Part shown: one piece after another, positions 5,212 to 63,282 of the stretch
How positions within the stretch are numbered: the stretch's first letter is position 1
Layout: every line of letters begins with the position of its first letter
Origin: Carboxylicivirga sp. M1479
GTDB lineage: Bacteria > Bacteroidota > Bacteroidia > Bacteroidales > Marinilabiliaceae
Reading direction: 5' to 3'
DNA: 64,000 bases
Assembly (NCBI RefSeq): GCF_007097485.1
Contig: NZ_VKDE01000010.1
Span: 62,001 to 126,000, forward strand
The notes under the pieces: generated by a model
What the model was told of the DNA's origin: nothing
The model's input: the letters and a program-made list of their open reading frames with translations, nothing else
Databases searched by the model: none
Program-made: the position numbers and the translations under genes

Positions 5212-5217
5212 CTGAAA
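5195..5217 (+). repeat. Left attachment-site repeat (tRNA-Leu 3' end)
   Basis: A 23-bp identity with 11319-11341, starting AAGTCCCGCC in the T-arm and running through the acceptor into the first bases after the tRNA. Tyrosine integrases that use tRNA genes leave such a 3'-end duplicate. Confidence 0.75.
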
Positions 5218-46186: not shown

Positions 46187-46287
46187 CTGTTTAAATTTAT
46201 TTTTCAATGGTCAGATGGAACTCCCAAATAGTTTCAATCATTGCCCTGTGTGTTACTTTAATGATTGAATCTACAAGGTCGTTTCAT
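46187..46287 (-). promoter_or_regulatory. Conserved leader element before the dehydratase gene (copy B)
   Basis: On the minus strand it runs from ATGAAACGACC to TTTAAACAG and ends at the start codon. The arms AACGACC and GGGAGTT can pair around a tandem G-A mismatch. Inside lies a perfect 10-bp stem TTCAATCATT/AATGATTGAA. Related copies are at 61524-61611, 63172-63282 and, inverted, 43074-43184. Confidence 0.6.
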
Positions 46288-46445
46288 GTTTAATTTCTTT
46301 ATTATTTATTAATCTCTTTTGGTAGAACTTGTTGGCGACCTTATTATCTTACTTCTATAACAATACGCATTTTCGAATAATTTAGAAGCGAATAATTTAT
46401 TTCGCAGGATTATCACAACTAAGTCTTAATCAGGAATTCATAATG

Positions 46446-46498
46446 CAAATATATACGGAGCAATGCGTTATTATAAACACTATTTTAATGTATATTTG
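46446..46498. promoter_or_regulatory. Divergent -7 boxes for block C and AraC 2
   Basis: TATATTTG on the minus strand (46446-46453) could start block C with a long leader of about 250 bases. TATATTTG on the plus strand (46491-46498) lies 41 bases before the AraC start. Neither has a clear TTTG -33 element, which fits activator dependence. Confidence 0.45.
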
Positions 46499-46537
46499 TA
46501 CTTTATTATTATTCTTTAATAATATAAGTTGATAATC
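46476..46537 (+). promoter_or_regulatory. 62-bp conserved upstream motif, copy 1
   Basis: Begins AACACTATTTTAA and ends GATAATC, two bases before the AraC start codon. It aligns without gaps to 52586-52647, 49 of 62 bases identical, upstream of the RraA-type gene. It is probably a regulator-binding region, perhaps for the adjacent AraC protein. Confidence 0.55.
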
Positions 46538-46538
46538 A

Positions 46539-47420
46539 ATGAAGCCTTTTTACACAAAAGCGACCACCCAATTTGATAATTCAGTGACCATCAGGTATGA
46601 TGAAAGCGAACATTTTTATCCTCATTGGCATTATCATGACGAATATGAGCTTGTCTATATCCGCAAAAGCTCTGGGATTAGATACATCGGTGATAGTATT
46701 AATCCATATCAAAAAGGAGACTTGGTATTATTGGGTAGTAAACTACCTCATGTTTGGATAAATAATGATTCTTCAAAAGAAAGTAATTCTAACAATGCTG
46801 CCTCAACTGTTATTCACTTTCAACCCAAATTCATCAATAACAATTTTTTTGAGCTTCCAATGATGGATAATCTTAAAAATTTATTCATGCTATCCAGCCG
46901 AGGAATAAGATTTATTCATTTTAATGATATAGAAGGGCATTTAACAGAAATCAATAATACGACGTCTACAGAACGAATAATTGCAGTATTCAAATTATTG
47001 TCACTGCTGAGTCAACATAAGGAAATCGAATTTCTTAGCAGTAGTGAATACAATCAGGTTGTTACAGCGCATCAGAGCGACCGACTTACCGTAGTTCATA
47101 ATTATATTGCAAAACATTTTAAGGAAAAAATAAAGCTTGAAACTCTCGCTGAAAAAGTACATATGACACCGCAAGCCTTTTGTACCTATTTCCGAAATAA
47201 AACGAGAAAAACAGTATTCACCTTTATTAACGATTTAAAGATTGGGTATAGCTGTAAATTATTGATAGAATCTGACTTGAACGTTGACCAGATTGCTATT
47301 CAAAGTGGCTATAACAACACTACCTTTTTTAATCGCAAGTTCAAGGAGAAATTAAAAGTTACTCCTAGAGAATATCGAAAGAAATTTAAAAGTCTTCTTC
47401 TTGTTTTGGATGAAGATTAA
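46539..47420 (+). CDS. AraC-family transcriptional regulator 2
   Basis: 293 residues. An N-terminal cupin (about 15-75: HFYPHWHYHDEYELVYI, KGDLVLLGSKLPHVW) resembles sugar-sensing AraC proteins. The C-terminal double HTH is at about 195-285 (IKLETLAEKVHMTPQAFCTY and NVDQIAIQSGYNNTTFFNRK). It is divergent from the catabolic block C and convergent with the sulfatase at 47533. It probably activates block C and, given the shared 62-bp motif, the RraA gene of block D; this is inference. The two AraC proteins of the window differ in sensor domains, suggesting two different inducers. Confidence 0.93.
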   Translation: MKPFYTKATTQFDNSVTIRYDESEHFYPHWHYHDEYELVYIRKSSGIRYIGDSINPYQKGDLVLLGSKLPHVWINNDSSKESNSNNAASTVIHFQPKFINNNFFELPMMDNLKNLFMLSSRGIRFIHFNDIEGHLTEINNTTSTERIIAVFKLLSLLSQHKEIEFLSSSEYNQVVTAHQSDRLTVVHNYIAKHFKEKIKLETLAEKVHMTPQAFCTYFRNKTRKTVFTFINDLKIGYSCKLLIESDLNVDQIAIQSGYNNTTFFNRKFKEKLKVTPREYRKKFKSLLLVLDED

Positions 47421-47532
47421 AAACAACTGATTTTAAACGCTTTAAATCAACTCACTACCACTATCAGGAGTTTTAACATTCATGCTTACATTGTTTTACT
47501 GCTGACTAGTTAATTTCCAAAACGCATCAACA

Positions 47533-48867
47533 TCAAAAATTAACCATTCCCTTATCACGAGTCTCTTCAATCCAATTGTCCATTACCCGACTTAACTTTT
47601 TTAATGTTTCCTGATACTCGGGTTTAGTCGCCAGGTTATTTAGTTCGTTTGGATCTGTATGAATCTGATACAATTCCTCAAACGGCTTGGGTTTTGCAAG
47701 AATTAGTTTCTGATGGTTATTAAGTTTATTCTGCGTTCCTAAGTCTTCAATTATGGGCAACATTGGTCGGTTATCAAGAACATATTGACATTCCTGGTAA
47801 CCTATTTCAGGAACATAGTTCCTAATATATTTGAACTGTTTGGTTCTTACACATCGGATGTGATCCTCCACATTACCAATTACATCGCGTGCTGCAAAAA
47901 CATACTCTCTTTCGGGCGCACTTGAATCAAGAAGAGAGCGCCCATCAAGATAATCTGGAAGTTCGGCTCCGGAAACATCTAATATCGTTGCAGTAACATC
48001 AAGCATACTTACCAATTTATCAGTTTCAATATTTCCTTCTTCTTCAGGCCATTTTATTATTAAAGGGATGTTGATACCTGCATCGTATAACCAACATTTT
48101 CCGCGTAAATGACAACGCCCATTATCCCCGATAAAAATTACGATCGTATTATCTGTAATTCCTTCCTCTTCAAGACGCATGAGTATTTCTCCAACCTGGG
48201 AATCCATCTTTTCAATGGCACCCAGATATAAAGCCCAATCATTTAGTGTAATATCATGTCTCGGAAAATATGGAGGAAGTTCTATCTCTGCAGTATCAAC
48301 AGGATTTTCTGATAGCTCCCTTAGCTTTGGCCATTCGCTGCTATACCACCTATGCGTAATCGGAAGCGTAATCTGAGCAAAGAACGGTTGACCTTCAGCC
48401 CTATATTTCCAATCATTACCATCGAAAAGATAGCTAGTGTGCTTCTTGTCTTCATTATAATACTTCTCAGCTATAAAATTATGATCGGTCTTATCGTGAT
48501 ATCCACAGCCTAATGCAGTATAGTAGCCGGCTTCTCTGAGTAATTCAGTAAAAGCAACTATTCCACCGGGCAAGGTAACTCCTCCTCGTCGTTGATCCTG
48601 CGTATCAGTACTTGTTTGGTAAACTCCTGTTAGCATAGCATTTCGTGAAGGAGTACATGAAGGGGCTGTTGTAAAAGCATTAGTATATTTGGTTCCTAAT
48701 GAGGATAGGTGATCAAGCACGGGCGTTTTTACTGCCGAATGGCCATAGCACGAAAGTTCGGTGCTTATATCTTCTGCCATTATCCATATGATATTAGGCT
48801 TGGATGAACCATGCAGATTCATCCAAGCAAATATCATAATTACACAAACTATATTTCTTATATTCAT
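47533..48867 (-). CDS. S1-family sulfatase, secreted
   Basis: About 444 residues from the ATG at 48867, chosen because it gives a signal peptide (MNIRNIVCVIMIFAWMNLHG); a longer frame to 48918 puts 17 polar residues in front. The domain starts NIIWIMAEDISTELSCYG; the formylglycine site is C71-T-P-S-R in APSCTPSRNAMLTG. TLPITHRWYSSEWP and FIGDNGRCHLRGKCW follow. It is the last gene of block D, 92 bases after a GH2 gene. It removes sulfate from a glycan, likely in the periplasm. It has no lipobox and no T9SS domain. Confidence 0.9.
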   Translation of the reverse strand: MNIRNIVCVIMIFAWMNLHGSSKPNIIWIMAEDISTELSCYGHSAVKTPVLDHLSSLGTKYTNAFTTAPSCTPSRNAMLTGVYQTSTDTQDQRRGGVTLPGGIVAFTELLREAGYYTALGCGYHDKTDHNFIAEKYYNEDKKHTSYLFDGNDWKYRAEGQPFFAQITLPITHRWYSSEWPKLRELSENPVDTAEIELPPYFPRHDITLNDWALYLGAIEKMDSQVGEILMRLEEEGITDNTIVIFIGDNGRCHLRGKCWLYDAGINIPLIIKWPEEEGNIETDKLVSMLDVTATILDVSGAELPDYLDGRSLLDSSAPEREYVFAARDVIGNVEDHIRCVRTKQFKYIRNYVPEIGYQECQYVLDNRPMLPIIEDLGTQNKLNNHQKLILAKPKPFEELYQIHTDPNELNNLATKPEYQETLKKLSRVMDNWIEETRDKGMVNF

Positions 48868-48959
48868 TTTACTTTTACTTATAAAATCTAAAACCAGTTT
48901 CCCATTTACCAAATCCATAAGTTTTGAACTTTAATTCAAAACCTGTCTCCTTTCAAAAC

Positions 48960-51728
48960 CTAATTGTCATATATACTTTTCTTTTCTAGTTTTTGGGCAT
49001 TTGGATCCAGTTGAAAACTGCTTTTGATTTGTTCGAAAGTCAATTCGTTGGAAGGACTAAATTCTGTAGATTCCATATAATTCATTATACTTTGTCGTAA
49101 GGTTTTTGCTACGATTCGGTCATTAATCTTAGAGTGTAAATCCATAGCGCTGAATACTAATAAACCTTTGCCAACTCTTGCTTCAAACAAATTCGATAAA
49201 TCACGGTTTTTAGCAAAATTATCGATAACAGTTACTATTCTTTCCGCCTCTATTTTTTCCATCTCAAGCGATTTGGATTGCTTACACAAATCCCACCATT
49301 GCCAATTTGAATGAAATTCTGTTGGAAAACTAGCAAAAGCCTGATGCTTGTTATTAATTAGTAATCCCATTGTTCCTGGTTGATTAGGAAAATGAACAGG
49401 ACTCCAGAATACTGGAACAAATTTTCCTTCAATACCTTTGAGTTCATTTATCTTTGGTGTCAATAAAACCTTTTCTCCATTACTAAGTGCCTCCTCGGCT
49501 TTTTGCCAATCAGAGGTTACCAAAACCTTACCAGCTTCATTTCGTTCAATTTGTGGATAAACCCATATTGGCCATGTATTCGTATACTCAGTACCCTTGA
49601 GTCTTAATGTAACATCAAGCTTCACAGGCTCTTTTATCTCTTTGAGTTCAAAGTCAAAAGTTCCGATTTCTGCATAACTTCCATAAGGGATTTTATCAAT
49701 TAGAAGTTCCCCGGCATTTAAATTCTGATTATTCATGGAAATCTGCCACTCAAATACAGATTGCCCAAGATCCTTCCAGTAGTTTGACACTTCTGCTTTA
49801 GCAGTGAAAATTTCATGACAGGAATAGGTTGCCTTTTCAAATTTTAAAAGAGGAACAAATTCACTGCAAAATTCCCTAAACTCAGCTCCTGTGATTATTC
49901 CTTTGGAATCCCAAAAAGCATCAAGCATACCCACTAATGCTGTACCCTGTCCGGGGAAATCATGTAAATCTAGTAGCTGAAACCCACTGATCCCAGGAGT
50001 TTTAAAAGCACGTTCTATTTCCTCCTTGTAAAGAATCTTAGCAAAATGCCCTGATGCCATTTGGTAATCACCCGCTTTATCAAGCCTTCCTTTTTTTTCT
50101 AAATCTGTTTTTATCGCTTCAAAATTTAATGGAGCAAGCACACCATCGTATTTTTTTATTTCCTCGGGATTTGGAAATACCGAATACTGACCTATTTCAT
50201 GCGTAATCAAAGGAATGTCAATAAATTCAATGCTTGAACGAAAATCTTTATCGAATGAGGGTGAATAGGTATCAAAAACACCTTGTCCTCTTACCCATCC
50301 TTCCTTAGTCCACTGAGTAATCCAAAAATCATTTGCAGCTTGAGGCTCTGCATCTTGCGGTTTTTGGAACGTAAATGAAGTAACAGTATATAAATGTCTG
50401 GCATCTGCTTCTTTTAACTCTTCCATAAATGATGAGAGCAAATCATAATCTCCCTCCAGTTCGTTCCCCATCGACATAAAACAAAATGAAGGGTGATTCC
50501 CGTATTCCTTAATCATTCGCCAACCTTCTTTTTCCATCCACCTAACCATATCCTTATCTTCTCCATAGCGCAACGACCAGTTAGGCAGTTCGACCTGTAG
50601 GTAAAAACCCATTTTATCGGCAACCCTAAAAGCGGCTTTAGGTGGACACCAGGAGTGAAAACGTAAATGATTCAATCCGTATTCTTTTGCAGCTTTAAAA
50701 ACTTTTTCCCAACCAGCATCATCCAAGGGAGGATGTCCATCTCTAGGGAAGATACTACATTCAAGCGTTCCCCTTAGAAATAAACGCTTCCCATTTATAA
50801 AAAGGTTATTATTTTCTGCTTCTATTTTGCGCAAACCAAACGGCACTTCTTTTAAGGTTTCTCCCAAACTATTGGTTACCTGTAAAGAATATAATTTTGG
50901 ATTATGCTCGCTCCATTTCTCAAAATCATCTTTAATCTCAAGTCTGATTGTTTTATCTGCAGAAATGGTTTTTTCTGCAAGGACTATCCCGGCTTCATTT
51001 CTAACAATAAACTGAATATTCTCTTTACTGTTTCCGCTTCCCTGAGCTTCAATTTTAATACTATTTTCAGCAACATCAGGATAAACCTGCAGGTTCTCAA
51101 TACTAAAGTCAGGTACAACGCGAAGTTTAAAATCTCCAAGAATTCCATTCCATATAGTCTGAGTAGTCTCAGTATATGCATGTGCTATAACTAAATTACG
51201 CGTTGTATCACATAAATCATATTGTTGTCGGTTATCAATACAAATCGTTATCAGGTGCTTGCCTTTTGATAATTTGCCCAATTTTAATTTGTGGGAAGTA
51301 ACCAAACTATTATCTGAACCTTTATATTCTCCATCAATCCAAACTTGCGATTTCCAAATTACTCTCTCCATCTCAAGCACAATATCTTTATTTTCCCATG
51401 CAGCAGGGACATCAATTTCCCGCTGATACCATGCTGGTCCAATATAACTTCGTTTTCTGGTTAACTGAAAAAGAGTTTCACGGTTGAGTTTAGGCTCAAG
51501 CACCACTTCTTCTCCAATTCCAGCTTTATCAAGCGTTGATGGTAAATGGATGGTCAGTTCGTCTGACAATTCATTTTCAAACCACTTTTCATTTTCACCT
51601 ACATCCAATGAATCCAGCTTAACAATCCATTCTCCTTCTAAATCTATAGAATTCGTGCTATTGTATGAACAGCCAATAAGTACACTTAACGACAGTCCGA
51701 GAAAATATTTTAAAGAAACCTTTTTCAT
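48960..51728 (-). CDS. GH2-family glycosidase, lipoprotein
   Basis: 922 residues with lipobox LIGC (C20). Layout as in the paralogue at 18212-21412: jelly-roll (about 30-205), Ig-like, TIM barrel with acid/base in SMGNELEGD (E423) and nucleophile in LITHEIGQY (E511), then the shared region FWSPVHFPNQPGTMG and HSNWQWWDL. It lacks the discoidin domain of that paralogue. It shares HLRFHSWCPPKAAF-type barrel text with both others, so the three form one branch of GH2. Located between an RraA-type aldolase gene and a sulfatase gene. Exo-beta-glycosidase of unknown substrate. Confidence 0.88.
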   Translation of the reverse strand: MKKVSLKYFLGLSLSVLIGCSYNSTNSIDLEGEWIVKLDSLDVGENEKWFENELSDELTIHLPSTLDKAGIGEEVVLEPKLNRETLFQLTRKRSYIGPAWYQREIDVPAAWENKDIVLEMERVIWKSQVWIDGEYKGSDNSLVTSHKLKLGKLSKGKHLITICIDNRQQYDLCDTTRNLVIAHAYTETTQTIWNGILGDFKLRVVPDFSIENLQVYPDVAENSIKIEAQGSGNSKENIQFIVRNEAGIVLAEKTISADKTIRLEIKDDFEKWSEHNPKLYSLQVTNSLGETLKEVPFGLRKIEAENNNLFINGKRLFLRGTLECSIFPRDGHPPLDDAGWEKVFKAAKEYGLNHLRFHSWCPPKAAFRVADKMGFYLQVELPNWSLRYGEDKDMVRWMEKEGWRMIKEYGNHPSFCFMSMGNELEGDYDLLSSFMEELKEADARHLYTVTSFTFQKPQDAEPQAANDFWITQWTKEGWVRGQGVFDTYSPSFDKDFRSSIEFIDIPLITHEIGQYSVFPNPEEIKKYDGVLAPLNFEAIKTDLEKKGRLDKAGDYQMASGHFAKILYKEEIERAFKTPGISGFQLLDLHDFPGQGTALVGMLDAFWDSKGIITGAEFREFCSEFVPLLKFEKATYSCHEIFTAKAEVSNYWKDLGQSVFEWQISMNNQNLNAGELLIDKIPYGSYAEIGTFDFELKEIKEPVKLDVTLRLKGTEYTNTWPIWVYPQIERNEAGKVLVTSDWQKAEEALSNGEKVLLTPKINELKGIEGKFVPVFWSPVHFPNQPGTMGLLINNKHQAFASFPTEFHSNWQWWDLCKQSKSLEMEKIEAERIVTVIDNFAKNRDLSNLFEARVGKGLLVFSAMDLHSKINDRIVAKTLRQSIMNYMESTEFSPSNELTFEQIKSSFQLDPNAQKLEKKSIYDN

Positions 51729-51836
51729 GATTATTCTGCTTTTTGATACTGAACTATTTAATTCGCCTCCTTAAACGAGGTTTTAAACGTAGGCACATGT
51801 TCGAAACCTAATTTTGTATGCAATCTTTATCAGCAA

Positions 51837-52526: not shown

Positions 52527-52585
52527 AATAAGGTTTTAAACCAGTTTTTATTATACAAAAATAGGAGGGGTTGCTCTTAATGTTC

Positions 52586-52647
52586 AACACTATTTTAACC
52601 CATATTTAAACTTTATTACTATTTTAAAGCAATATGAGTTAATAATC
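52586..52647 (+). promoter_or_regulatory. 62-bp conserved upstream motif, copy 2
   Basis: Gap-free match, 49 of 62 bases, to 46476-46537, in the same plus-strand orientation. It lies 60-121 bases upstream of the RraA-type gene, which is on the minus strand, and after the stop of the GH128-like gene. Confidence 0.55.
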
Positions 52648-52712
52648 TAAAATCCTGTTTCATACAAATGACACATATGTGTAATTGTTAATTTGTAAGA
52701 TGCTGCAAAATA

Positions 52713-55700
52713 TTATTTAATAAATATTTTCTGAGTTTCTACCATATTCCTGGTTATTACTTTTACCAGGTAAACACCTGCATGGTTTATTAAAATTTGA
52801 TTTTCACCATGCACAATCTGTTTGTTGACAATTAATCGGCCATTTATATCATAAATATTTGCTAACGCATGACTAGCCTTTAGGTGAACTATTACATTCT
52901 TTCCAAGAGAATAAATTTTAGCAAGCGATTCTTTTTGCGAAACGGTTGTTTCTGATATATCGGTAGTGAAACTTACAGTAAATGTGACACTTTGCCCCGA
53001 CCGTGCACCAACATTATCAGTTGCAACGGCGCTCAAAGTATAATCACCTGCCGTAAGATTTTGCAAGGCTGGGTCATCCCATCCCCATTCATAAGGAGCC
53101 GTGTCGTCAAGCCCAATAAATACGCCATTCAAATAAAGCTGAACATTACTTATCGTACCATCTGTATCACTTGCGTTTACTTCAACACTAATTTCTTCTC
53201 CTCTATTAAACTCTGTTTCATTTTCCGGATTTAGAAAACTTAATACAGGATACTGTGTTGCACTTTCTCGATGATCGTAGATTGCTTCGGAATTATAAAA
53301 TACCGGTGCATTATTATCCTTGTAGATTTCTCCGGCAGGTGTTAGTTCAAAGGTGCTATAGTCATTAATCATCTGCCGCCATTCACCGACCCATTCGTAT
53401 AAAGAATGTCTTTCAATCCAGCTTGTTGTATCTAACATATTTAAAAACAAGCCAATATCTTTTGCTTGTTCTTCATAGGAATGTGGAGGGGCTTCATTGG
53501 TCCAGGTTGCTCCGTTATTCCATTCTTTAACCCAAATAGGACGACCTGTTCTGTCGTGAATTTCTTTTAAGTAATTGTAGTATTGCTGAGCAGTTCTGCC
53601 TCCTTTATACCAATGACATACCACATAATCGACCCGATAATTTAATCTTTCTATCTCGTCCCAAAACTCCCACAACCATTGTTTACCATTGTCTGCAATT
53701 GCCGGTGAACTTAAGCGTAATCCTGATTTCATAAGAGAAGGCCAATATTCAATAGCCTGTGCAACAGTCAGGTTCGACTGTTCGGTGTGACTGGGCTCAT
53801 TAAATGCAAGCATGTGAGTTACATCACGCCACTCTCCATATTCTCCTGCATAACCACCACCCCATTTTTCAGGTACAAACTCCACATCAAGTGTATGTTT
53901 AACATTCATTCCCCAGTCATAGCGCCATGTTGCATCAACAGCATCGGCATAAGGTTGCGAACCGCAGAAACCCTTTTTAGATGGCCAGTTCCATGGAAAT
54001 ACGCGAATAAAAGAAACGGCATCTTTTAATCCAGGTTCCATAAGGGAAATATCTAAATCGCTATCGCTTGCCACAAACACTTTACTGAACCCTGTTCCGT
54101 CTTGATTTTCGGCTAGTGTAGCCATATAGCCGTGCTTTAATCTGAATGAACCAACATTATCGTTCAATGCTCCCAATTCACTTGTACGATAAAAAGTATA
54201 GGGTTTCATTTTTATTGATGCCCCCTGATAAGCTGCTTCTGCATAAACTGTTAATGGTTCGTATTCATCGTTATGTGGTACTATGACAGTTCCTCTGCCA
54301 TATTGTTTTATTCTTACATTCTTTATCAGATAGTTATAAGAACAAGGGACTCCGTTTATATAAATATCATCCAATAAATACTCTGCAACCACCGAAGGTC
54401 TGATATGGTGAAAATAAATCCATGCATCAGGACTGTTAACATATACCTTTGTGTCTTTCAAGGGATTAACCGAACCACTTACATGTAATTTGGCATAACC
54501 ATTTAATGAAATCACATTATCTGCTAGTGTCTCGACTTCTAATGGTTTGTTATTCAAATATAAGCCATAAGCTTCATTGCTACTGATTGTTGAAATGGTA
54601 TAAGCCGTGACTCTTCCAGTTTCTGATGTTACCAAAACTTTCATATCATCACTAACCAACGAGTCATCAGCCACATCGCTATCATCGGCATTTACAACAC
54701 GTATTGTAGCTCCCGGGGAACAAGTTGCGGTTTCTTTCAAATAAAATGCCATTGTTTTATTTGGAAGCTGTGTTATTAATTTTGCCTGAGTACTAATAAC
54801 TCCTTGTGAGAGACTCAACAAATCAGAACCGCTATACAGATTACGCGTCGAAATACTATATATTTTATCGGGATTATTAGCCGAATTGATTCTTACTTGC
54901 ATAGCCGAAGTCACTTTTTTGCCAACTGCCACTTCTGAATTACTAGCAACATATTCTACTCTTAACGTTGAGGAAGTCGTTTTTCGTAAGCTTTCAATAA
55001 ATTCGGTGACCGTTATTGCCGATGATACATTGCTGATTGAGAAATCTTTATTATCCAAATCACCTTTGTAAGCAGCTAACAAAACATTATCATTAAATTT
55101 CAGAGTATAAAAACGGAACGAACCATCCTCAGCAAACACTTTTATTCTGTATTCTTCAGATGCAATTGTTCTCCAATCGGCTACAGTCCCTTCATTCAAA
55201 GTGAATAATTCAACACGCGCTTTTTCAGATAACTGTAATCCTTCTAAAAATTTCGTAAACGGGATATCAACCATTGGGATATCAGCTATTACATTCGTAG
55301 TATTATTGACTACTCCATATTCTGATTGAACAATTAAAGCCTCTGAACTCATCCCCGTCGGGTCAATTTCTTCTAAAACTAAACTATCAGCATAAATAGT
55401 TCCTTTTTGGGGAACATAAATGGCCAACTTGTGCGTATCGGTTTCTTTTACCTTAAATGTTTTCGAAACGTATGCCCAGTCGGTATATTCTTTTTTAAAT
55501 ATCAGTGTATTATAGGAAATATAATAGTCGTTTCTGCACTTGATATTAAAAAAATATTGCTTGTCAACTTCGCCAATTTTCACATATCCCGAATACCTGT
55601 ATGTCTTTCCTGCAACAAGTTCTTTTTGTTGATATATCCAACCGGTTTTAGATGATACCCGCACTTTAGCACAGTATTGTCCGCCTTCTGCCAGTTCTGT

Positions 55701-55838
55701 ATTGCTAATTGCAGAATTAGTTGGATTCCAATCATTCAAATTTCCTGATTCAAAATTACCATTAGTCAGCAAGTTTTGAGCAGATAATGTTATCGTCCAT
55801 GAGAAAAATACAATTAATAAAGCAGATAAATTTCTCAT
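52713..55838 (-). CDS. GH128-like glycosidase with N-terminal binding domain, repeats, Ig-like and T9SS domains
   Basis: 1041 residues. Signal peptide (LSAQN, 21), CBM4_9-like domain (about 22-158: NGNFESGNLNDWNP), three related repeats of unknown type (about 165-420, each ending in V.aedG...YTi-like text such as VFAEDGSFRFYTLKF and VTSETGRVTAYTIST), a beta-rich region, and a catalytic domain (about 590-850) of the Asl1/GH128 type with Glu in LAFNEPSH (E681) and in VKEWNNG (E772). An Ig-like domain (PVLSFLNPENETEFNRG) and a T9SS sorting domain follow. GH128 enzymes cut beta-1,3-glucans; the match is at clan level and the substrate may differ. Its 5' end lies in a 488-bp repeat; this copy is the intact one. 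Confidence 0.8.
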   Translation of the reverse strand: MRNLSALLIVFFSWTITLSAQNLLTNGNFESGNLNDWNPTNSAISNTELAEGGQYCAKVRVSSKTGWIYQQKELVAGKTYRYSGYVKIGEVDKQYFFNIKCRNDYYISYNTLIFKKEYTDWAYVSKTFKVKETDTHKLAIYVPQKGTIYADSLVLEEIDPTGMSSEALIVQSEYGVVNNTTNVIADIPMVDIPFTKFLEGLQLSEKARVELFTLNEGTVADWRTIASEEYRIKVFAEDGSFRFYTLKFNDNVLLAAYKGDLDNKDFSISNVSSAITVTEFIESLRKTTSSTLRVEYVASNSEVAVGKKVTSAMQVRINSANNPDKIYSISTRNLYSGSDLLSLSQGVISTQAKLITQLPNKTMAFYLKETATCSPGATIRVVNADDSDVADDSLVSDDMKVLVTSETGRVTAYTISTISSNEAYGLYLNNKPLEVETLADNVISLNGYAKLHVSGSVNPLKDTKVYVNSPDAWIYFHHIRPSVVAEYLLDDIYINGVPCSYNYLIKNVRIKQYGRGTVIVPHNDEYEPLTVYAEAAYQGASIKMKPYTFYRTSELGALNDNVGSFRLKHGYMATLAENQDGTGFSKVFVASDSDLDISLMEPGLKDAVSFIRVFPWNWPSKKGFCGSQPYADAVDATWRYDWGMNVKHTLDVEFVPEKWGGGYAGEYGEWRDVTHMLAFNEPSHTEQSNLTVAQAIEYWPSLMKSGLRLSSPAIADNGKQWLWEFWDEIERLNYRVDYVVCHWYKGGRTAQQYYNYLKEIHDRTGRPIWVKEWNNGATWTNEAPPHSYEEQAKDIGLFLNMLDTTSWIERHSLYEWVGEWRQMINDYSTFELTPAGEIYKDNNAPVFYNSEAIYDHRESATQYPVLSFLNPENETEFNRGEEISVEVNASDTDGTISNVQLYLNGVFIGLDDTAPYEWGWDDPALQNLTAGDYTLSAVATDNVGARSGQSVTFTVSFTTDISETTVSQKESLAKIYSLGKNVIVHLKASHALANIYDINGRLIVNKQIVHGENQILINHAGVYLVKVITRNMVETQKIFIK

Positions 55839-56036
55839 TCCTGAATGATGTTTATACGAATTCTTAAACTTATTGAGACTCTTATTATTTTTTAATTATC
55901 TGCTTTGACACGGCACCATTCTCACCCGAAAGTTGAATTACATAAACTCCTGTTTGAATATTTGGAACCTGTAGTGTTATCTTATTAACATCTCTGGATA
56001 TTGTTCCGTTTCTCATCACTCTTCCTGACATGTCCA
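55549..56036. repeat. 488-bp direct repeat, left copy
   Basis: Equal in length to 57690-58177, with about three base differences seen. It covers the 5' end of the GH128-like gene, the intergenic region and the last 50 codons of the propeller gene. It ends exactly where the IS begins. It is read as a very long target-site duplication. Confidence 0.85.
55885..56036 (-). pseudogene. C-terminal fragment of the propeller gene (duplicated)
   Basis: Copy of the last 50 codons of the gene at 58026-61523 (T9SS domain end, IQTGVYVIQLSGENGAVSKQ), cut off by the IS at 56037. It is a by-product of the duplication. Confidence 0.85.
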
Positions 56037-57689
56037 CCTGAGTTCGACACTGGGACACCCAAATTAGAAGTTAAACATTGTTGCTAACATTTTTTGTTCT
56101 TCAGTGATTAAAATTGTTTTGGATACAATGTGTTGTTGGTTTGGTGTTTTTACCTGTATTGCATAAATGGTTTTGGCAATATCCATTGCTTTTTCTGGGC
56201 TCAAATCAGACCCCTTGAGTTTGAGTTGTCTTTCAAGCTCTTTGTAGATTTTATATGCCACAAACGATATACAGATATGAGCTTCAATCCGCCTTTGGAT
56301 TCGGTGATAAACTGGCCTTATTTTTAAGTCATGTTTTGATATCCTAAAAGCTTTCTCAATTTTCCATAGGTGTGCATAGTTTTCCATAATGTCATTATTT
56401 GACATTTTTGTGTTGGTCAGATATCCTTTTAAACCATCCCATTTGCCATCGGAATCAAACTTCTCCAAATCTATTGTCAGGCTGATTTTACCATCCATCT
56501 TTAAATATTTGTTGTATCCCCGATTATTAATGTTGGATTTGGTCAATTTTCCTGATTTTATCTTTTTTCAAGTTTGGCAAGCCCTTTCTCTCTGTTGTGT
56601 TTATCCTTTTTGGCTCTTTTCTTAGAGTGCGTAACAAGAAGTCTAATGTCGTTATCCTTTATTATTAATTGCTCCTTTGTTTCCGAGTAGTCAAAATTTA
56701 ATATCTGTGCTTTTATTGAGGTGGTTTCGTTCTTTATCCTTGCTACCAGGATAAACTCATATCCTTTGGAGCAAAGTTCTTGGATATTGTCATTAGTTAG
56801 CAGGCCTGAGTCGGCAACTACTACAAGTTTATTGATGCTGTAGCGTTCTTTAAACCCATTGATAACCGGGAGCATCGTGTGACCCTCATATTTGTTGCCT
56901 TCGAAAATCTCATATGCGAGTGGGTAACCATCAACACTGACTAAAAGACCGAGCAGTATTTGAGGGTTCTGATGCCTGCCTTCTTTTGAGAAACCAGTCT
57001 TTCTTATTTCATCTTCGTTATCTACTTCAAAGTAAAGTGTGGTAACGTCATAAAAAACAACATTAATTTCATTATTCAAGATTTTCAGCGAATGTGCATA
57101 GCTGATGTCTTGCACCAACTCTTTTTGACTGCTATGAAGCTTATCTAAATACCGATAGATATGTTGGGGCTCTATTGACAGAAAATGATATTTTGAGAGA
57201 AAATCAGTTGTTCTGAGTTTGCTTGCCGGAAAGCACAAACGCGCTATCACAAGTTGTTTGAAAAGTTTATCGTCGATAGTATCAAATCCAATCTCATCAA
57301 ATATCTTTCCTAACAAAAGAGTGGTTCCGGCCACTGTAATTTGTTCGATGTTATCTAGGATGGTTTCTGTAAGATCCCTTTCGCATGTAAAATCCAGTTC
57401 TTTTTGACCAATCTTGTTTTTAATCCAAACTTCACCCTCCATAACAAGATTTTCAACCTCTTCTGGGCTGGAACTACTCCCAATGGTTTTTATCATATTA
57501 TATTTCCCTGTGTTCTTATCAATGACTTGAACACTGATGACTCCGCTCTTGTTTTTCTTTTTTCTGACAAACACATATTAAATATACCCAAAATTGAGCT
57601 GGGACACCCAAAAATGCCTTTTAAAAACAGTTATTCCACTGAATGATTGATGTTTATGATTTTGCTCTCGAAAAAGTGTCGAAGTCAGG
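56037..57689 (-). mobile_element. IS1634-type insertion sequence
   Basis: 1653 bp. The ends are inverted repeats: CCTGAGTTCGACACT at 56037 and, on the other strand from 57689, CCTGACTTCGACACT (14 of 15 match). Both ends abut the 488-bp direct repeats exactly. A quasi-palindrome TGGGACACCCA occurs just inside the left end and again near 57600. One transposase gene, split by a frameshift, fills it. IS1634 itself was described as making long, variable-length direct repeats. Confidence 0.88.
56064..57574 (-). pseudogene. IS1634-family DDE transposase, split by a frameshift
   Basis: The first frame (57574-56558, 338 residues) has the Asp of VFYDVTTLYFEVD and of LVVVADSGLLT. The second (up to 56064, 160 residues) has the conserved Y-x-x-x-x-x-x-E region NYAHLWKIEKAFRISKHDL with the third acidic residue. 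They join at a run of six A on the coding strand (56563-56568): zero frame ends LEKR-stop, the -1 frame continues EKKIKSGKLTKSN. Either a base has been lost, or -1 slippage yields full-length enzyme. The A-site codon does not re-pair perfectly after the shift, so the canonical slippery motif is not met. Confidence 0.85.
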
Positions 57690-57979
57690 AAAAAATATTG
57701 CTTGTCAACTTCGCCAATTTTCACATATCCCGAATACCTGTATGTCTTTCCTGCAACAAGTTCTTTTTGTTGATATATCCAACCGGTTTTAGATGATACC
57801 CGCACTTTAGCACAGTATTGTCCGCCTTCTGCCAGTTCTGTATTGCTAATTACTGAATTAGTTGGATTCCAATCATTCAAATTTCCTGATTCAAAATTAC
57901 CATTAGTCAGCAAGTTTTGAGCAGATAATGTTATCGTCCATGAGAAAAATACAATTAATAAAGCAGATAGATTTCTCAT
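57690..57979 (-). pseudogene. N-terminal fragment of the GH128-like gene (duplicated)
   Basis: Repeats the first 96 codons of the gene at 52713-55838 (signal peptide and part of the binding domain, up to VDKQYFF) and is then cut by the IS. One amino-acid difference is visible (NPTNSV for NPTNSA). It keeps the original promoter-proximal position, so transcripts from the upstream gene would enter the IS here. Confidence 0.85.
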
Positions 57980-58177
57980 TCCTGAATGATGTTTATACGA
58001 ATTCTTAAACTTATTGAGACTCTTATTATTTTTTAATTATCTGCTTTGACACGGCACCATTCTCACCCGAAAGTTGAATTACATAAACTCCTGTTTGAAT
58101 ATTTGGAACCTGTAGTGTTATCTTATTAACATCTCTGGATATTGTTCCGTTTCTCATCACTCTTCCTGACATGTCCA
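57690..58177. repeat. 488-bp direct repeat, right copy
   Basis: Starts immediately after the IS right end and reaches into the 3' end of the intact propeller gene. See the left copy at 55549-56036. Confidence 0.85.
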
Positions 58178-61100
58178 ATAAGCGCCATTCTGAAAACAAA
58201 TTATTGAGGCTGTAATTAATGTTCAATACATTTTCAACCGGATTAGGGTACACTTTAAAATCGTCTTTAGCAATCAAGTCATAAATACCAACATTCTCCA
58301 ATTTACCTGTACCAATAGTGAGTGTATCGGAATAGCTGGAATGACCGGCTTCATTAAAGGCCTTTACTCTAAACCAATAGGTATCCTCTGAATTTGTATT
58401 CTTAAGCTTGAAAGTAGTGATGTCCTGCCCTGAGGTGTAGATAGGCATAAAAGCATCGTCGACATACTGCTCTACAACAAAGCCATCTTCATCACTTGAT
58501 AAGTCCAGCCAAATCATTTCAATTTCAGTATCGCTTAATCGACCTCCTTGTACAAATTGTGGCTTATTAGGAGCCTTTGCTTCGATTCTTTGCGTTAAAA
58601 GGGATAACTCAGCGCAACTGGCATAGTTGGTTCCATTGTATCCACTTAAACCAACTAATTTAATATACCTGGCTTCTTTACTTTCAGAGAAATAGACTTC
58701 TTTTAATGCTGTGCTCCCATTCCAGGTTCCACTACTTACTTTAGTCCAGGTGCTATTATCCGATGAGATATAAAACTCATAATCCTGAATAGTACCATCA
58801 TTTTTCCCATCCTGGCGTGGCATGTAGGAAAATCCTAAAAAGCTATGCGACGCATTCATGTCAATAACCAGCTCATGAGGATATGGTGGTTGTGCTCCCG
58901 ACCATTGCGTGAACCAAAATGTTACTGGGTTTCCATCAAATGCGTAAGAGGCCAAATGTGAACCTGCAACATCTTCACTATCTACGCTTACCAATGTCCA
59001 GTCAGTTTTAGAAACCTCTCCCGCTGATGGAATATTAACCAATTGATAGTTAGAATAAAAAGATTCATCATCCGTGTTATAGGCCTTAACTCTATATTGA
59101 CAGCTTCCATTGTCTGGTATATCTGAATCAACAAAGGCTACTTCATTGGCATTAACACGTCCCACTTCTTCGAAGAGTCCATTATTTGTGCGCTCAATAA
59201 TAAAGCCATCTTCATTATCCGAATTATCTGCCCAGCTTAGTTCAACAGTCTTATTGTTCTTCACTTGCGTCACCAAATTATCAGGATATACTAGCGTTTG
59301 ATAATTACCATCTACTTTAAAACTTAGCACCCCACTTCCATACGTGGCAAACTTAACTTCATTCTCTTTTTCAATAAATTCAACATCAGTGAAATCAACG
59401 TAAGGTACCGATGCATCATTCATCTCGTACCAGATATCGTCATCCACTGAGTACACCCATATTCCTGCATTACCGCAAGCAGCATAGATGTATTTCTCGT
59501 CAGCTGACAAATCAAAATCTCTGATTCGATAGACATCAAGGCCATCTACATGTTTTGCAAACGTTTTTCCACCGTCCTTGCTAATCAAAAACACATTACC
59601 AACACCGGCATAATAAACAGTTTTCTCATCAATATTGGATGCCTTAATAACATGCTGATTTTTATGGTAGTTGTGTGACTGATCATTGGCCTTAGGCAAA
59701 ACACCAGAGTAGTTGGATTTAGTAAATGTTTGACCCCCATCCTCTGAATACAAGAAAACACCACTTTTTACTGAAACATACCAACGCTGAGGATTTAATT
59801 CGGAATAAGCAAACCCGGTTATATCATAAGCTGTTTCTCTTTTGAAATCAACGTAATGTTTGGTCTCGATAATACTCTGCTGATTTGAATTATACGTTAG
59901 TTTCGACAACTTATTGCCATAAGCCAAGTAAACGGCATCTTCTTTTTTATTTGGGGAGGCCACCATGGGTGCAGCCCACCAGTTACCTTTTTCGTGAATA
60001 GCAGTTAAACCGGAGCTACCAGCTATAAAATTAGTGCGATGAAAAATAGAACCATAATACATCCATGTCCATACGGAAGCATCTCTATTTCCCAAAGTAA
60101 CCCTTAAACCATCGGTTGTTTTTACATCCACTGTAGTTGCCTCATTACCGGAGTTAAGAAAACCAACGGTACCCCTGTCCTGGTTAGCTGTAAATGAACT
60201 GTTATAATTTTGTCCATGAGCGGCATCGTAACACATTTGTGCAGGCGAAGCATTATTCAATGATATATAATTCGACCAGCTTTCTGGTACATCAGCTACG
60301 TAACAACCAAAATCCTTACCTATAAAATGAAAATAACTACCATCGCTTCTTTGGTAAAATTTCATATGATGTACATCCCAGCCTAGGCGATGCCCAAAGT
60401 TGCTAAATGACGCACCGTAATTAAGCGATACATTCACATCTAAATATCCTCTGAAAATCATGTTTGGCTTTGTGGGATGAACGGTGCGTACATTCGTATT
60501 GCCACTCTCCTGCCCTATCTGCTTTAAAGTCCAATTGGCTCCTTTATCAGAAGTATAGTAGATATGAGTATACTTTGTACCAACATAAAAATGATAGTTC
60601 CCATTATGATAGGTTCCAAAAATATGATCCAGACTTACAAAGCTTGTATTCGAGGTGTTTTTTAATGTAAAACCCGACTCGTCAATGGTTTTCTCATAAA
60701 TACTAACTTTTGAATCAGAATAGTGATAAACAGCCAGAAAAACCGATTCTGAATTATGCACTTTAAACAGCTTTGTATAGTATGTACTCGTATTAAAACT
60801 TGTGCCCAACGCACTATACGATTCACCATTATCATCAGATGTAAATACCTGTACTGTACTTGAATTTGTTTTTAATAGCACATGTATTCTATTGCCAGAT
60901 GATGCTTTTACAATGACCCCTTCATTACTTTTGGCTACAGAAGTTGCTCCGGTCGCGACTTCCCATGTTTTGCCCTCATCATCGCTATATTGCATTCCAT
61001 AATCTGCTGAACGAATCATGCGAAAGGAGCCATTACTTTTATTCAGACCATCAATGTACGAGGAATTGAAATCGTATTTGTGATTCATTATTTGCCAGCC

Positions 61101-61523
61101 GTCAGTAGCACTGCCATCAACATTACGATTTATTTTCCAGATATGACCAGCATGGGAGATGGCGTATAGCACATCATTCATCTTATCGTATACTGATCCT
61201 TTAATTCGAAATCCATAAGGGCTACCTGCATAAGTTAAAAACCTAAATTGCTCCCAAGAACCTGTAATTTGCCCATTGGCATAAGATGACGTTCCGGATG
61301 AACTCTTTAAAGAATTTTCAACCGTTAAAGCTCTTTCTTGATGCCTTTTATTAACACTTTGTTCCTCTGTAGAAACAAGAACCTTTGGTCGTTCTTCAGC
61401 TTCTTCTTCATAGATAAGCCCAGAATTATAATGATTTGCTTCTGTTACCCAAAGTTCACTTAAGCAATAGGTGATAAGTGAAAGACAAAAACCAGCTAAT
61501 AAATATTTGTAGATTTTTTTCAT
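58026..61523 (-). CDS. Asp-box beta-propeller protein with FN3, CBM32-like and T9SS domains
   Basis: 1165 residues with a hydrophobic N-terminal signal (residues 5-25). Residues about 85-770 carry repeated BNR/Asp-box motifs (YSDDEGKTWE, FTSDDNGES, YTSDKGANWT, YSEDGGQTFT, ISKDGGKTF), a propeller of the sialidase/GH74/exo-rhamnosidase kind. Then FN3 (about 775-860), an F5/8 type C domain (about 870-1005; HLASYAFDGNPVTFWF), a second FN3 (about 1015-1095) and a T9SS sorting domain. It is large and secreted. Hydrolase, lyase and binding roles are all possible; I cannot name a catalytic pair. A conserved leader sits before its ATG. Its last 50 codons are duplicated beyond the IS. Confidence 0.78.
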   Translation of the reverse strand: MKKIYKYLLAGFCLSLITYCLSELWVTEANHYNSGLIYEEEAEERPKVLVSTEEQSVNKRHQERALTVENSLKSSSGTSSYANGQITGSWEQFRFLTYAGSPYGFRIKGSVYDKMNDVLYAISHAGHIWKINRNVDGSATDGWQIMNHKYDFNSSYIDGLNKSNGSFRMIRSADYGMQYSDDEGKTWEVATGATSVAKSNEGVIVKASSGNRIHVLLKTNSSTVQVFTSDDNGESYSALGTSFNTSTYYTKLFKVHNSESVFLAVYHYSDSKVSIYEKTIDESGFTLKNTSNTSFVSLDHIFGTYHNGNYHFYVGTKYTHIYYTSDKGANWTLKQIGQESGNTNVRTVHPTKPNMIFRGYLDVNVSLNYGASFSNFGHRLGWDVHHMKFYQRSDGSYFHFIGKDFGCYVADVPESWSNYISLNNASPAQMCYDAAHGQNYNSSFTANQDRGTVGFLNSGNEATTVDVKTTDGLRVTLGNRDASVWTWMYYGSIFHRTNFIAGSSGLTAIHEKGNWWAAPMVASPNKKEDAVYLAYGNKLSKLTYNSNQQSIIETKHYVDFKRETAYDITGFAYSELNPQRWYVSVKSGVFLYSEDGGQTFTKSNYSGVLPKANDQSHNYHKNQHVIKASNIDEKTVYYAGVGNVFLISKDGGKTFAKHVDGLDVYRIRDFDLSADEKYIYAACGNAGIWVYSVDDDIWYEMNDASVPYVDFTDVEFIEKENEVKFATYGSGVLSFKVDGNYQTLVYPDNLVTQVKNNKTVELSWADNSDNEDGFIIERTNNGLFEEVGRVNANEVAFVDSDIPDNGSCQYRVKAYNTDDESFYSNYQLVNIPSAGEVSKTDWTLVSVDSEDVAGSHLASYAFDGNPVTFWFTQWSGAQPPYPHELVIDMNASHSFLGFSYMPRQDGKNDGTIQDYEFYISSDNSTWTKVSSGTWNGSTALKEVYFSESKEARYIKLVGLSGYNGTNYASCAELSLLTQRIEAKAPNKPQFVQGGRLSDTEIEMIWLDLSSDEDGFVVEQYVDDAFMPIYTSGQDITTFKLKNTNSEDTYWFRVKAFNEAGHSSYSDTLTIGTGKLENVGIYDLIAKDDFKVYPNPVENVLNINYSLNNLFSEWRLLDMSGRVMRNGTISRDVNKITLQVPNIQTGVYVIQLSGENGAVSKQIIKK

Positions 61524-61611
61524 CTGTTTGAATTCGTTTTCATTTGTCAGATGTAACTCGCCAACTTCGTCATCCTCCTAACTGAGATGCAATTATCACG
61601 GCTCGTTTCAT
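61524..61611 (-). promoter_or_regulatory. Conserved leader element before the propeller gene (copy C)
   Basis: On the minus strand it runs from ATGAAACGAGCC through GGCGAGTTACATC to TTCAAACAG, directly before the start codon. Arms AACGAGCC/GGCGAGTT pair around a tandem G-A mismatch; the 37-base interior differs from the other copies. It lies between two genes of the same strand, starting about 30 bases after the sulfatase stop. Confidence 0.6.
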
Positions 61612-61641
61612 GTCAAACTTTTTTTAATTTTTCCGCTCTTT

Positions 61642-63171
61642 TTAATTCATCTTCTCAACCTGCTCGAATTGATAATTTGTTTGGTCTTGCTTCACTTCAT
61701 GTAGCCACTTGTCAAACTTCATCTGTAACTCTTCAGCTTTACGCGGCAGTAATTCAATTAGGTTATTTTGCTCCCCAATGTCGGTTTTAAGGTTATACAG
61801 AGCCAACTTGCCACTATTAATACCAAGTTGAATTTGCGATGTTATTGGTCTCCAATGTGGTTTATAATCTTCGGCATAAACCAGTTTCCAACCATCATCA
61901 ATAATAGCCCACTGTTTACCAAATTGAAAACAAAGGGGTTCTTTAGCGTTATCTGACGGCATATTTTTAGCGATTGGTTCAATAAGACTACATCCATCAA
62001 ATTTATAATCGTTATCCATGCTTATCCCAACTGCCTCCAGGCAAGTAGGCATAATATCCATGGCAGAAACACGGTGTTGATACAACCTGTTTTTAGGCAA
62101 TACCTGAGGCCATGAAATGATAAAAGGCACTCGAATGCCACCTTCATGCATGGTGTATTTTGACCCCGTCAAAGGCAGATTGTTTGCCCCGGTTAAAGGC
62201 TCGCCTCCATTATCGGAAATAAGGATAATCATGGTATTATCTAGTATATCCAACTTCTCTAGAGCATCAAGCAATCGACCAATATTATCGTCGAGACAAT
62301 TTAAGTTGGCTAAATAAAGTTTTCTTTTCCCTTCATCAGTTATATCACCAACTTTTGTATACTTATAATAGTAATCGTTATAAGTCCCCATAGAGGGATC
62401 GTAATTGGGTATTTTAGGGGCATCCCATTTTTTTCGATATTCTTCGGGAACCTGATGAATTAATTCATGTACTGCATTATAAGATAAATCAAGAAAAAAT
62501 GGCTTGTCTTTGTTTTTATCAATAAACTTTAAGGCCTCATCGGTATAAAGGTTTGTGCTATACGTATCTTTAAATCCTACTTTAACTTTATCTCGAAATA
62601 TTCTGCCAAGAGAAGCACTCTCTCCATAGGGATCAGGCGTAGCTTTTTCAATGTCCTCATCTAATAACCAAAAATCATGAGCATGAGCACTAAAACCTAT
62701 AAAACTGTCATAACCATGATTGTTTGGAAAATCGCGCATCTCAGGATTATGATAATTTCTACCAAAATCACTTTTTCCTACTTTACCTGTTGTATATCCT
62801 TTTTTCTTGAGTAATTCGGCTATAGTTGGAATATTAACAGGTAGCCCTGGTGCCCAGCTCATATCCTCATCCCATCGTTCCTGATACTTTCCTGTGTAGA
62901 TAGAGGCACGCGATGGACTACAAACTGGCCCAGAAACATAACAATTATCGAACAAAACACCATTTTTGGCAATCCTATCCATATGAGGTGTTTGACACCT
63001 GGGCGATACATGTTCATAAGCACTAAGGTCGGCATATCCCTGATCATCAGTTACTATTAAAATAACATTGGGAGGCTGAACAGTAGTCGATTTCGAACTA
63101 TCAGGGCCATTGCATTGTACTGACAAGATCGCAACTAACGCCAATACAATATGCTTTACACTTGCTTTCAT
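61642..63171 (-). CDS. S1-family sulfatase, lipoprotein
   Basis: 509 residues with lipobox SVQC (C20). The sulfatase domain starts NVILIVTDDQGYADLS; the formylglycine site is C84-S-P-S-R in GPVCSPSRASIYTG. VGKSDFGRNYHNPE, LSYNAVHELIHQVP and LISDNGGEPLTGANN follow. It lies downstream of a GH30 gene and upstream of the propeller gene. The ATG at 63171 is fixed by the conserved leader that ends AAACAC before it. A glycan sulfate ester hydrolase; position specificity unknown. Confidence 0.93.
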   Translation of the reverse strand: MKASVKHIVLALVAILSVQCNGPDSSKSTTVQPPNVILIVTDDQGYADLSAYEHVSPRCQTPHMDRIAKNGVLFDNCYVSGPVCSPSRASIYTGKYQERWDEDMSWAPGLPVNIPTIAELLKKKGYTTGKVGKSDFGRNYHNPEMRDFPNNHGYDSFIGFSAHAHDFWLLDEDIEKATPDPYGESASLGRIFRDKVKVGFKDTYSTNLYTDEALKFIDKNKDKPFFLDLSYNAVHELIHQVPEEYRKKWDAPKIPNYDPSMGTYNDYYYKYTKVGDITDEGKRKLYLANLNCLDDNIGRLLDALEKLDILDNTMIILISDNGGEPLTGANNLPLTGSKYTMHEGGIRVPFIISWPQVLPKNRLYQHRVSAMDIMPTCLEAVGISMDNDYKFDGCSLIEPIAKNMPSDNAKEPLCFQFGKQWAIIDDGWKLVYAEDYKPHWRPITSQIQLGINSGKLALYNLKTDIGEQNNLIELLPRKAEELQMKFDKWLHEVKQDQTNYQFEQVEKMN

Positions 63172-63282
63172 GTGTTTATATTTTGTTTTTTATTGTCACT
63201 ACTTGTCCCTATTTACCGGGATGGAACTCGCCAAATTAGTCATCATCGTGTGTGTGAAAAAATCTCTCATGGCTCGTTTCAT
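63172..63282 (-). promoter_or_regulatory. Conserved leader element before the sulfatase gene (copy D)
   Basis: On the minus strand it runs from ATGAAACGAGCC through GGCGAGTTCCATCCCGG to AAAATATAAACAC, directly before the start codon. It is nearly identical to the orphan copy at 43074-43184. Besides the paired arms it has a second small hairpin, TCCC/GGGA. A 27-codon frame also starts at its first ATG (MKRAMRDFF) and ends at TAG. Confidence 0.6.

Follow-up and report, generated by a model that had tools for sequence, protein, structure and literature searches.

Several described systems bear comparison with the subject of this report, a folded unit of about 100 bp that stands directly before the start codons of unrelated genes in Carboxylicivirga sp. 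M1479 and was encountered in a window of 64,000 nt (contig NZ_VKDE01000010.1, positions 62,001-126,000 of the forward strand, assembly GCF_007097485.1; "the window" denotes this whole stretch). The first of these are the gene cassettes of integrons, whose attC sites carry boxes of the form RYYYAAC and GTTRRRY and are targeted by IS1111 elements. Like these cassettes, as generally understood, the units occur in tandem arrays of the same orientation, possess a hairpin with an unpaired spacer that would be completed by the junction of a circle, and seem to attract elements of the IS110 family. They differ in that they contain no open reading frame (ORF), have no attI platform and use start codons as their target, and in that 19 genomes yielded no integron integrase above cut-off. 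A second point of comparison is provided by the IS110/IS1111 elements with their seekRNAs or bridge RNAs, as portrayed in the consulted portions of two studies (PMC11187229, PMC11208160). The likeness lies in a structured unit of RNA-like size, an exact target and insertion slots that are shared with two IS110 elements, whereas the unit has no transposase, IS110 was not found in 9 of 12 unit-bearing genomes, and the NNG triplet within the unit (see below) shows no clear match to the left target flank.

Repetitive extragenic palindromes (REPs), bacterial interspersed mosaic elements (BIMEs) and other small dispersed repeats are comparable in being short, hairpin-forming, high in copy number and, it seems, targeted by IS110 elements, the consulted part of the IS621 study annotating REP elements as possible IS110 targets (PMC11208160); the units, in contrast, sit precisely at start codons and none lies near the five Y1 transposase genes of the genome. 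The TAACTGA direct repeats, going by the consulted part of their description (PMC4679880), likewise lie just ahead of the start codons of unrelated genes, some Bacteroidetes included, but are repeats of seven bases as opposed to the much longer folded units seen here. Finally, miniature inverted-repeat transposable elements share the miniature, non-coding and mobile character of the unit, but no terminal inverted repeats of a known transposase were recognised in it and its hairpin needs joined ends to reach full length. In the literature searched, judged mostly by titles and the beginnings of abstracts, no description was recognised as that of this element.

Four copies are present in the window. 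The initial annotation had described three of them as conserved leaders on the minus strand, and these are indeed found, each ending directly before an ATG. The copies and the genes behind them are as follows:

46187..46287, minus strand: unit of type B (ATGAAACGACC...GGGAGTTCCATC, tail ...TTTAAACAG), abutting the MR_MLE gene
45026..46186, minus strand: MR_MLE gene, encoding a mandelate racemase/muconate lactonizing enzyme-like protein of 386 aa (Pfam PF13378 E 4.3e-60, PF02746 E 1.9e-17), start ATGAAA, behind the type B unit
61524..61611, minus strand: unit of type A (ATGAAACGAGCC...GGCGAGTTACATC, tail ...TTCAAACAG), recognised by sequence pattern
58026..61523, minus strand: gene for a protein of 1165 aa with BNR repeats, an F5/8 type C domain and a type IX secretion system (T9SS) sorting tail, start ATGAAA, behind the type A unit
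63172..63282, minus strand: unit of type A whose CAT is followed by a CCCGGTAAATAGGG hairpin insert, tail ...ATATAAACAC, recognised by sequence pattern
61642..63171, minus strand: gene for a sulfatase of 509 aa (Pfam PF00884 E 6.3e-60), start ATGAAA, behind the type A unit with the hairpin insert
43074..43184, plus strand: fourth unit, type A with hairpin insert, an orphan in which ACAC is followed by ATAAAA, where no ORF starts

A gapped pattern of the two outer arms (ATGAAACGASC-N25..55-GAGTTNCATC) matches the window at four sites, 43074-43136 on the plus strand and 46214-46287, 61550-61611 and 63220-63282 on the minus strand, as against 0.00 matches expected from 100 dinucleotide shuffles. 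We consider it probable that the unit is a miniature mobile cassette whose insertion point lies in the ATGAA(A) of start codons or immediately ahead of it. The "conserved leader" is most likely a small mobile element which supplies every gene it enters with a structured RNA, as opposed to the control element of one gene set; that it is mobile, structured and tied to start codons is well supported. The evidence does not support a regulatory leader serving a group of genes and points to a dispersed insertion, the units being missing at the orthologues of relatives, standing before unrelated genes, occurring in tandem and sometimes being left without any gene.

The abundance of the unit in its own genome bears on this point. 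A version of the arm pattern with a gap of 20-50 gave 18 matches over the whole genome and its reversed control none, while a covariance model (R1) built from 23 copies gave at least 146 matches at E<=1 in the 5.4 Mb searched, a lower bound in that 150 of 3704 first-look candidates were scored. The census presented here comprises 142 of these 146 matches, the four weakest having been left out. The unit measures 86-112 bp in 118 of 122 measured cases (full range 85-122 bp), and consists of a core, mostly 61-64 nt long in type A and 73-76 nt in type B, and a tail that is usually 25-29 nt long, extending to 44-48 nt in copies that carry a short CCCGAT...ATCGGG hairpin as an insert behind the CAT. 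An exact ATGAAAC opens 113 of the 142 units, and 116 of the 122 defined tails end in CNN (CAC, CAT or CAG in 103) directly before the follower, which nearly always begins with another ATG; the units are thus flanked by direct repeats of ATGAA(A). Short palindromes (CCCGATAAATCGGG, CCCGATAGCTATCGGG, CCCGAGTACTCGGG and variants) are nested in units at L004, L005, L014, L358, L112, L117 and L347, usually right after the CAT, the one at L112 lying inside the unit core. Further, at three loci (L009, L168 at C50:101 and L196 at C13:111863) units are directly followed by a repeat starting with ATGAAACCATCATGATTAAGC or close to it and carrying CACGCAGG/TACACAGG and TCTTGATACT motifs, which is likely a further unit type missed by the model.

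The follower of a unit is a gene (an ORF of at least 60 aa on the same strand) in 73 cases, the next unit in 26, the left end of an IS110 element in 23, something else in 19 and a contig end in one; the IS110 class was assigned from the start sequence of the element, the contig ending within 200 nt in 22 of the 23. Among the 19 others are genes that are short or look damaged, as well as additional unit-like repeats missed by the model. Counted as arrays, the 142 copies amount to 116, namely 94 single, 19 double, two triple and one quadruple. Two identical units precede unrelated genes on different contigs (C35:60807 and C60:69052) and the median nearest-neighbour identity among the 142 is 0.89, indicating that recent and old copies are both present. 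The initial annotation had spoken of three unrelated catabolic genes; unrelated they are, but the genes downstream of units genome-wide go beyond catabolism and include those which we take from their sequences to be DXS, 6PGDH, aspartokinase, argininosuccinate lyase, IspF and FolK. No common theme was discernible among them by eye, which speaks against a metabolite riboswitch.

The unit has spread to many unrelated genes among marine Bacteroidota. Beyond this genome, 13 others of the genus contain 3 to 61 units each at E<=0.1, with at most 88 candidates scored per genome. A match was obtained in 37 of the 60 genomes searched and, class-wide, in 17 of 247 genomes at E<=0.001, the own genome being included in both counts. 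Genomes with the exact pattern, among the matches listed, include those of Carboxylicivirga, Labilibacter, Labilibaculum, Natronoflexus, Geofilum, Breznakibacter and Prolixibacteraceae; the exact-pattern scan yielded at least 108 stretches, of which 80 were used. Viral contigs gave no match to one exact pattern.

Comparison of orthologous sites revealed precise presence and absence of the unit, the behaviour of a miniature mobile element, and did not reveal conservation at orthologous genes of related function, the behaviour of a riboswitch or leader regulon. The presumed DXS gene (this name and that of 6PGDH were given from the sequences, without a family search) has a unit in one of 14 genomes of the genus, that of M1479, with 125 nt upstream compared in each; in its near relatives the upstream TTATTATCTTTG stretch is kept and runs straight to ATGAA. 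The presumed 6PGDH gene has units in two of the 14 genomes, of different type, and none within 125 nt upstream in the others, a second locus of G003 (L149, 44% identity) being left out of this comparison. With regard to the window genes, the 200 nt upstream of the sulfatase orthologue in G010 (88% identity) lack a unit even though the terminal part of the preceding gene is conserved there, and a unit is likewise missing from the 200 nt before the orthologues of the racemase-like gene in G009 and G011. These two genes are unit-free in all three of their orthologous loci, other genomes having no orthologue at the thresholds used.

Behind units, 56 of 73 genes start with ATGAAA, eight with ATGAAG, seven with ATGAAT and two otherwise, so that ATGAA is found in 71; among 358 control genes from 80 loci of relatives, with starts placed mechanically at the first ATG, the corresponding counts are 73 for ATGAAA and 129 for ATGAA, and among the 37 genes of the window, three of them behind units, they are 13 and 19. 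The three closest DXS relatives start with ATGAAG as compared with ATGAAA in the unit-bearing gene, the unit-free 6PGDH relatives with ATGCAA, ATGAAT, ATGGAA or ATGAAA, the sulfatase orthologue with ATGAAG, and the two racemase-like orthologues with ATGAAG and ATGAAA, respectively. To the left of first units lies A-rich sequence with peaks at -12, -11, -6 and -2, which we read as the probable old initiation region of the gene. The motif TAnnTTTG occurs inside 50 of the 142 units and upstream of 20 of 109 first units (shuffled mean 9.8, maximum 20 in 300 shuffles), the latter excess weakly favouring promoters that lie upstream of the unit. At L076 (C39:51830), the gene after three units starts with ATGAAACGAGCC-ATGAAAATAGCG, in which the opening 12 bases of a unit are joined to the native start of the gene; this may be the scar of a partial insertion or excision.

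The folded structure is framed by a helix, P1, in which AUG-A-AAC-GA-GCC pairs with GGC-GA-GUU-N-CAU. The outer arms had been correctly paired in the initial annotation, albeit over too short an extent, and the longer pairing places the leader's own ATG within the helix. A compensated arm change that had been claimed between the window copies proved to be the loss of a base pair from both arms in the copy at 46187 (the type B subfamily), with no substitution. The larger alignment on which that annotation had staked its proposal does contain compensated changes, though few in P1: among 107 units, taken from 92 loci that belong mostly to other genomes, both partners had changed in five pairs (8 cells) against a shuffled mean of 0.3, and none of 500 shuffles scored as high. 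Most of these loci had been picked with an exact pattern in which both P1 arms are partly fixed, which lowers the variation open to view; L229, on the same contig as L227, and L329-L333 were left out. In L327, ordinary pairs replace the GA/GA mismatch (AACATCC with GGATGTT). The inner hairpin also changes in step, with TGAGA/TCTCA in 28 units, TGAGC/GCTCA in three, TGAGT/ACTCA in two and TGACA/TGTCA in one, and its best stems reach at least 5 in 52 of 77 units as against 381 of 1540 shuffled ones. The proposal that conserved, base-paired arms enclose a variable interior is, in this respect, borne out.

The strongest covariation signal connects the three bases after the CAT (NNG) with the last three bases of the unit (CNN). 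In the own genome 278 of 321 cells are paired (shuffled mean 223, maximum 240 in 2000 shuffles), and in other genomes, G-U included, 268 of 285 (mean 212, maximum 228 in 5000 shuffles). The latter count uses 95 of the 101 distinct sequences among 107 rows, those with long tails or no CAT being left out, and sets the end of the tail at the next ATGAA where one was found, such that it is not informative on the start. The first pair is formed in 88 of these 95, as G-C in 31, A-T in 29 and C-G in 28, and the three states recur across both core types and many genera. Fifteen units with the CCCG hairpin insert, which were counted apart, are paired in 10, 14 and 13 cases at the three positions. When the first 60 distinct units were folded, the hairpin formed by the joined ends had a mean z of -3.5, with 54 of 60 below -2, as compared with -1.2 and 11 for the linear unit and -2.0 and 25 for the core alone; the CNN/NNG end was closed in 53 of the 60 joined-end folds.

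These features allow a mechanism to be sketched. With the terminal CNN pairing to the NNG after the central CAT, a circle or a tandem array, in which CNN directly precedes the unit's own ATG, would present a continuous hairpin, CNN-ATG-A-AAC-GA-GCC...GGC-GA-GTT-C-CAT-NNG. The fact that it becomes continuous only when the unit ends meet suggests, without proving, a circular intermediate, and the joined-end hairpin would be the feature recognised by the mobility machinery, with the 5-6 bp of ATGAA(A) serving as the crossover between circle and target. Over 109 first units the NNG bears no clear relation to the left flank, matching it in 26, 67 and 36 cases at its three positions (30.8, 66.2 and 31.4 expected); this is as expected if circle and target have mainly ATGAA(A) in common, and from it we infer a circle with its crossover there. 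The idea that NNG acts as an IS110-like guide to the sequence on the left of the target was dropped for want of a clear signal over the same units, the ATGAA side alone showing a match. Once a unit has inserted, the former initiation region of the gene would serve a short upstream ORF, its place being taken by the A-rich tail of the unit, and the central CAU could pair with either AUG and thereby affect translation. Such an effect is plausible, the predicted pairing of the CAU in 54 units with native flanks being 0.42 with the unit AUG and 0.44 with the gene AUG. The most complete form of this scenario, in which circles with a joined-end hairpin recombine at ATGAA(A) and plug a two-state RNA together with an initiation region into many 5' leaders, with IS110 elements following as parasites whose guides may have undergone re-programming, would amount to a class of start-codon cassettes not met with in the literature searched; it is put forward tentatively, as a possibility that we do not favour outright.

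A number of observations weigh against a mobile start-codon cassette or restrict the evidence for it. No recombinase was identified among the three candidate classes tested (IS110, Y1 and integron integrase), none of which fits. An ORF of 60 aa is missing from the expected position at 19 of the 142 copies, 15 of which are followed by ATGAA. The covariation of P1 comes down to the 8 cells mentioned, the helix being nearly invariant among 73 units drawn from this genome and its relatives (two pairs changed on both sides); a control slid by +2 equals its covariation score (0.039 vs 0.038), a slide of +1 has three changed pairs, and the covariation shuffles take no account of relatedness. The joined-end and linear folds are of unequal length, and the reverse complement has a z of -3.4, so that the fold does not tell RNA from DNA. 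The CNN/NNG pairing would be equally compatible with an mRNA helix around the AUG of the gene, and the third base of the left flank shows a slight excess (36 against 31.4, attained in 0.04 of shuffles). Additionally, the enrichment of ATGAAA could reflect selection after insertion, and the balanced pairing probabilities of the two AUGs leave room for selection for a translational switch.

One alternative holds that the unit is an integron-like cassette, in which a tyrosine recombinase acts on the folded strand by way of an attC-like hairpin with an unpaired GA/GA spacer. This is possible but rather doubtful. The same-orientation tandem arrays, the completion of the hairpin at the joined ends and the flanking repeat of 5-6 bp all agree with it, and the apparent targeting of units by the IS110 family is reminiscent of that of attC by IS1111. 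Weak matches to TIGR02249, taken to be ordinary tyrosine recombinases, occur in all 13 unit-bearing but also in four of six unit-free genomes; at 17 of 19 genomes they are too common to judge, and a tyrosine recombinase of some kind may still be involved. No integron integrase scored above the curated cut-off of that model in any of the 19 genomes, which counts against the mobile cassette preferred here as well, as this mobiliser was not found, and the arms ATGAAAC / GTTCCAT depart from the attC boxes.

The IS110 family enters the argument through two elements (Pfam PF01548), referred to as IS110#1 and IS110#2, that occupy unit slots, beginning after a unit tail and ending before ATGAAA. IS110#1 has a unit tail on one side and the next unit on the other, the assembly being broken inside it, and IS110#2 in G005 sits between a unit and the ATGAAA of a gene. 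The loci are:

L100 (G005:C4:141500-145500), L008, L010, L016, L075; L069: IS110 elements at unit boundaries

A unit that corresponds to a seekRNA or bridge RNA together with element ends, and that is moved in trans by an IS110/IS1111 transposase guided to ATGAAA, would explain the sharing of slots by two different elements. It would also suit the left end of IS110#1, which resembles a unit (partial matches, 19.6 bits, E 0.048), a weak partial unit-like match (23.4 bits, E 0.0025) near a more distant IS110 of G017 (L090), and the size of seekRNAs, given as 70-100 nt in the consulted part of their description (PMC11187229) and thus near that of the unit. IS110 was favoured at first as the general mobiliser. 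However, PF01548 was detected at E<=1e-10 in three of 12 unit-bearing and none of four unit-free genomes, the own genome also having it, a distribution that again leaves our reading without its mobiliser. It was not found in G003, G004, G014, G019, G034 and G035, each with 24-80 unit matches at E<=0.1 (weak in G035), though these genomes are drafts from which an IS110 copy could have been lost or left unassembled; G019 contains units only 2-3 edits apart before different genes. Hence, IS110 is unlikely to be the general mobiliser, and we regard the unit as a non-autonomous member of this family as an unlikely proposition.

Instead, the IS110 elements may tentatively be seen as targeting units rather than moving them. 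Their non-coding regions contain matches to the end junction of the unit, namely TAAACAGAT (IS110#2, G000), TTAAACACAT (IS110#2, G005) and ACATGAAAC (IS110#1), with matches as long in 9, 1 and 4 of 500 shuffles, respectively, over nine same-strand comparisons. Together with the biology of seekRNAs, in the portion of that work drawn upon (PMC11187229), these matches suggest that units are the target. The difference between TAAACAGAT and TTAAACACAT might represent a natural re-programming of IS110 guides to variants of the unit end junction, an idea that stays tentative given that the tails found before these elements agree only partly with the guides: CAG in six, CAC in four, CAT in two and CAA in one before IS110#2 in G000, CAT in eight and CAC in two before IS110#1, and CAT rather than CAC before the one G005 copy of IS110#2 that was read.

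A true cis-regulatory RNA, be it a riboswitch, a protein-binding leader or a start-codon switch, that is kept at a regulon while its copies are spread by recombination, appears quite improbable. The compensated structure, the balanced pairing of the CAU with either AUG, and the placement of 73 of 142 copies directly before a same-strand gene start, the remainder being mostly followed by another unit or an IS110 end, can be cited in its favour; yet the element is absent from orthologous genes, is shared by downstream genes with no theme evident by eye, and shows tandem arrays, orphans and a wide range of copy numbers. A known riboswitch class was rejected, in line with the initial annotation, which had recognised none: no Rfam family matched, with Rfam 15 recovering only four tRNAs over the window at gathering scores and no match at E<=5 at the unit positions of four loci.

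A REP-like palindrome spread by a RAYT/Y1 transposase is very unlikely, for although the unit is a dispersed hairpin with mismatches and the genome has five Y1_Tnp genes, no unit was found at E<=1 in the five Y1 loci (3.2-3.3 kb each), which again deprives the mobile cassette of a mobiliser, and the precise start-codon placement and tandem arrays are unlike REPs. Near one Y1 transposase gene (L065, 2288-2860) there is a tandem repeat encoding copies of MAQQPV..YDxLSGKKRNTTISNKQRRRCATYQDRSKAYLLDELPISPEGATHF. The leader peptide that was initially raised as an option, starting with MKRA or MKRP at the conserved ATG, is extremely improbable: these residues begin 46 of 70 frames before genes because the conserved arm encodes them, but 67 of the 70 frames stop before the gene after a variable 1-30 codons, three run past its start, and the unit lengths fall into all three classes modulo 3 (53, 27 and 42 for 0, 1 and 2).

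If the units are indeed mobile cassettes aimed at start codons, the way in which translation starts would be altered at dozens of genes simultaneously, with the reading frames left unbroken. A new class of target for mobile DNA would be added, and the units would offer an example from nature of IS110 elements directed at a repeat of the host. Within one genus, species differ more than tenfold in the number of copies. A defined question is raised thereby, namely which recombinase moves them and whether it acts on the folded strand. The case also serves as a warning that conserved 5' leaders emerging from motif searches in Bacteroidota can be insertions as opposed to regulons.

Elsewhere in the window, a pair of tRNA genes is duplicated 1.9 kb apart (3148-3327 and 5031-5212) with 96-97% identity, the duplication including 61 nt upstream at 89%. 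At 52713-57979, a gene of 1041 aa and a second copy of its first approximately 100 codons flank a two-piece DDE transposase (56064-57574, PF01609), an arrangement that looks as if the insertion came after a partial duplication.

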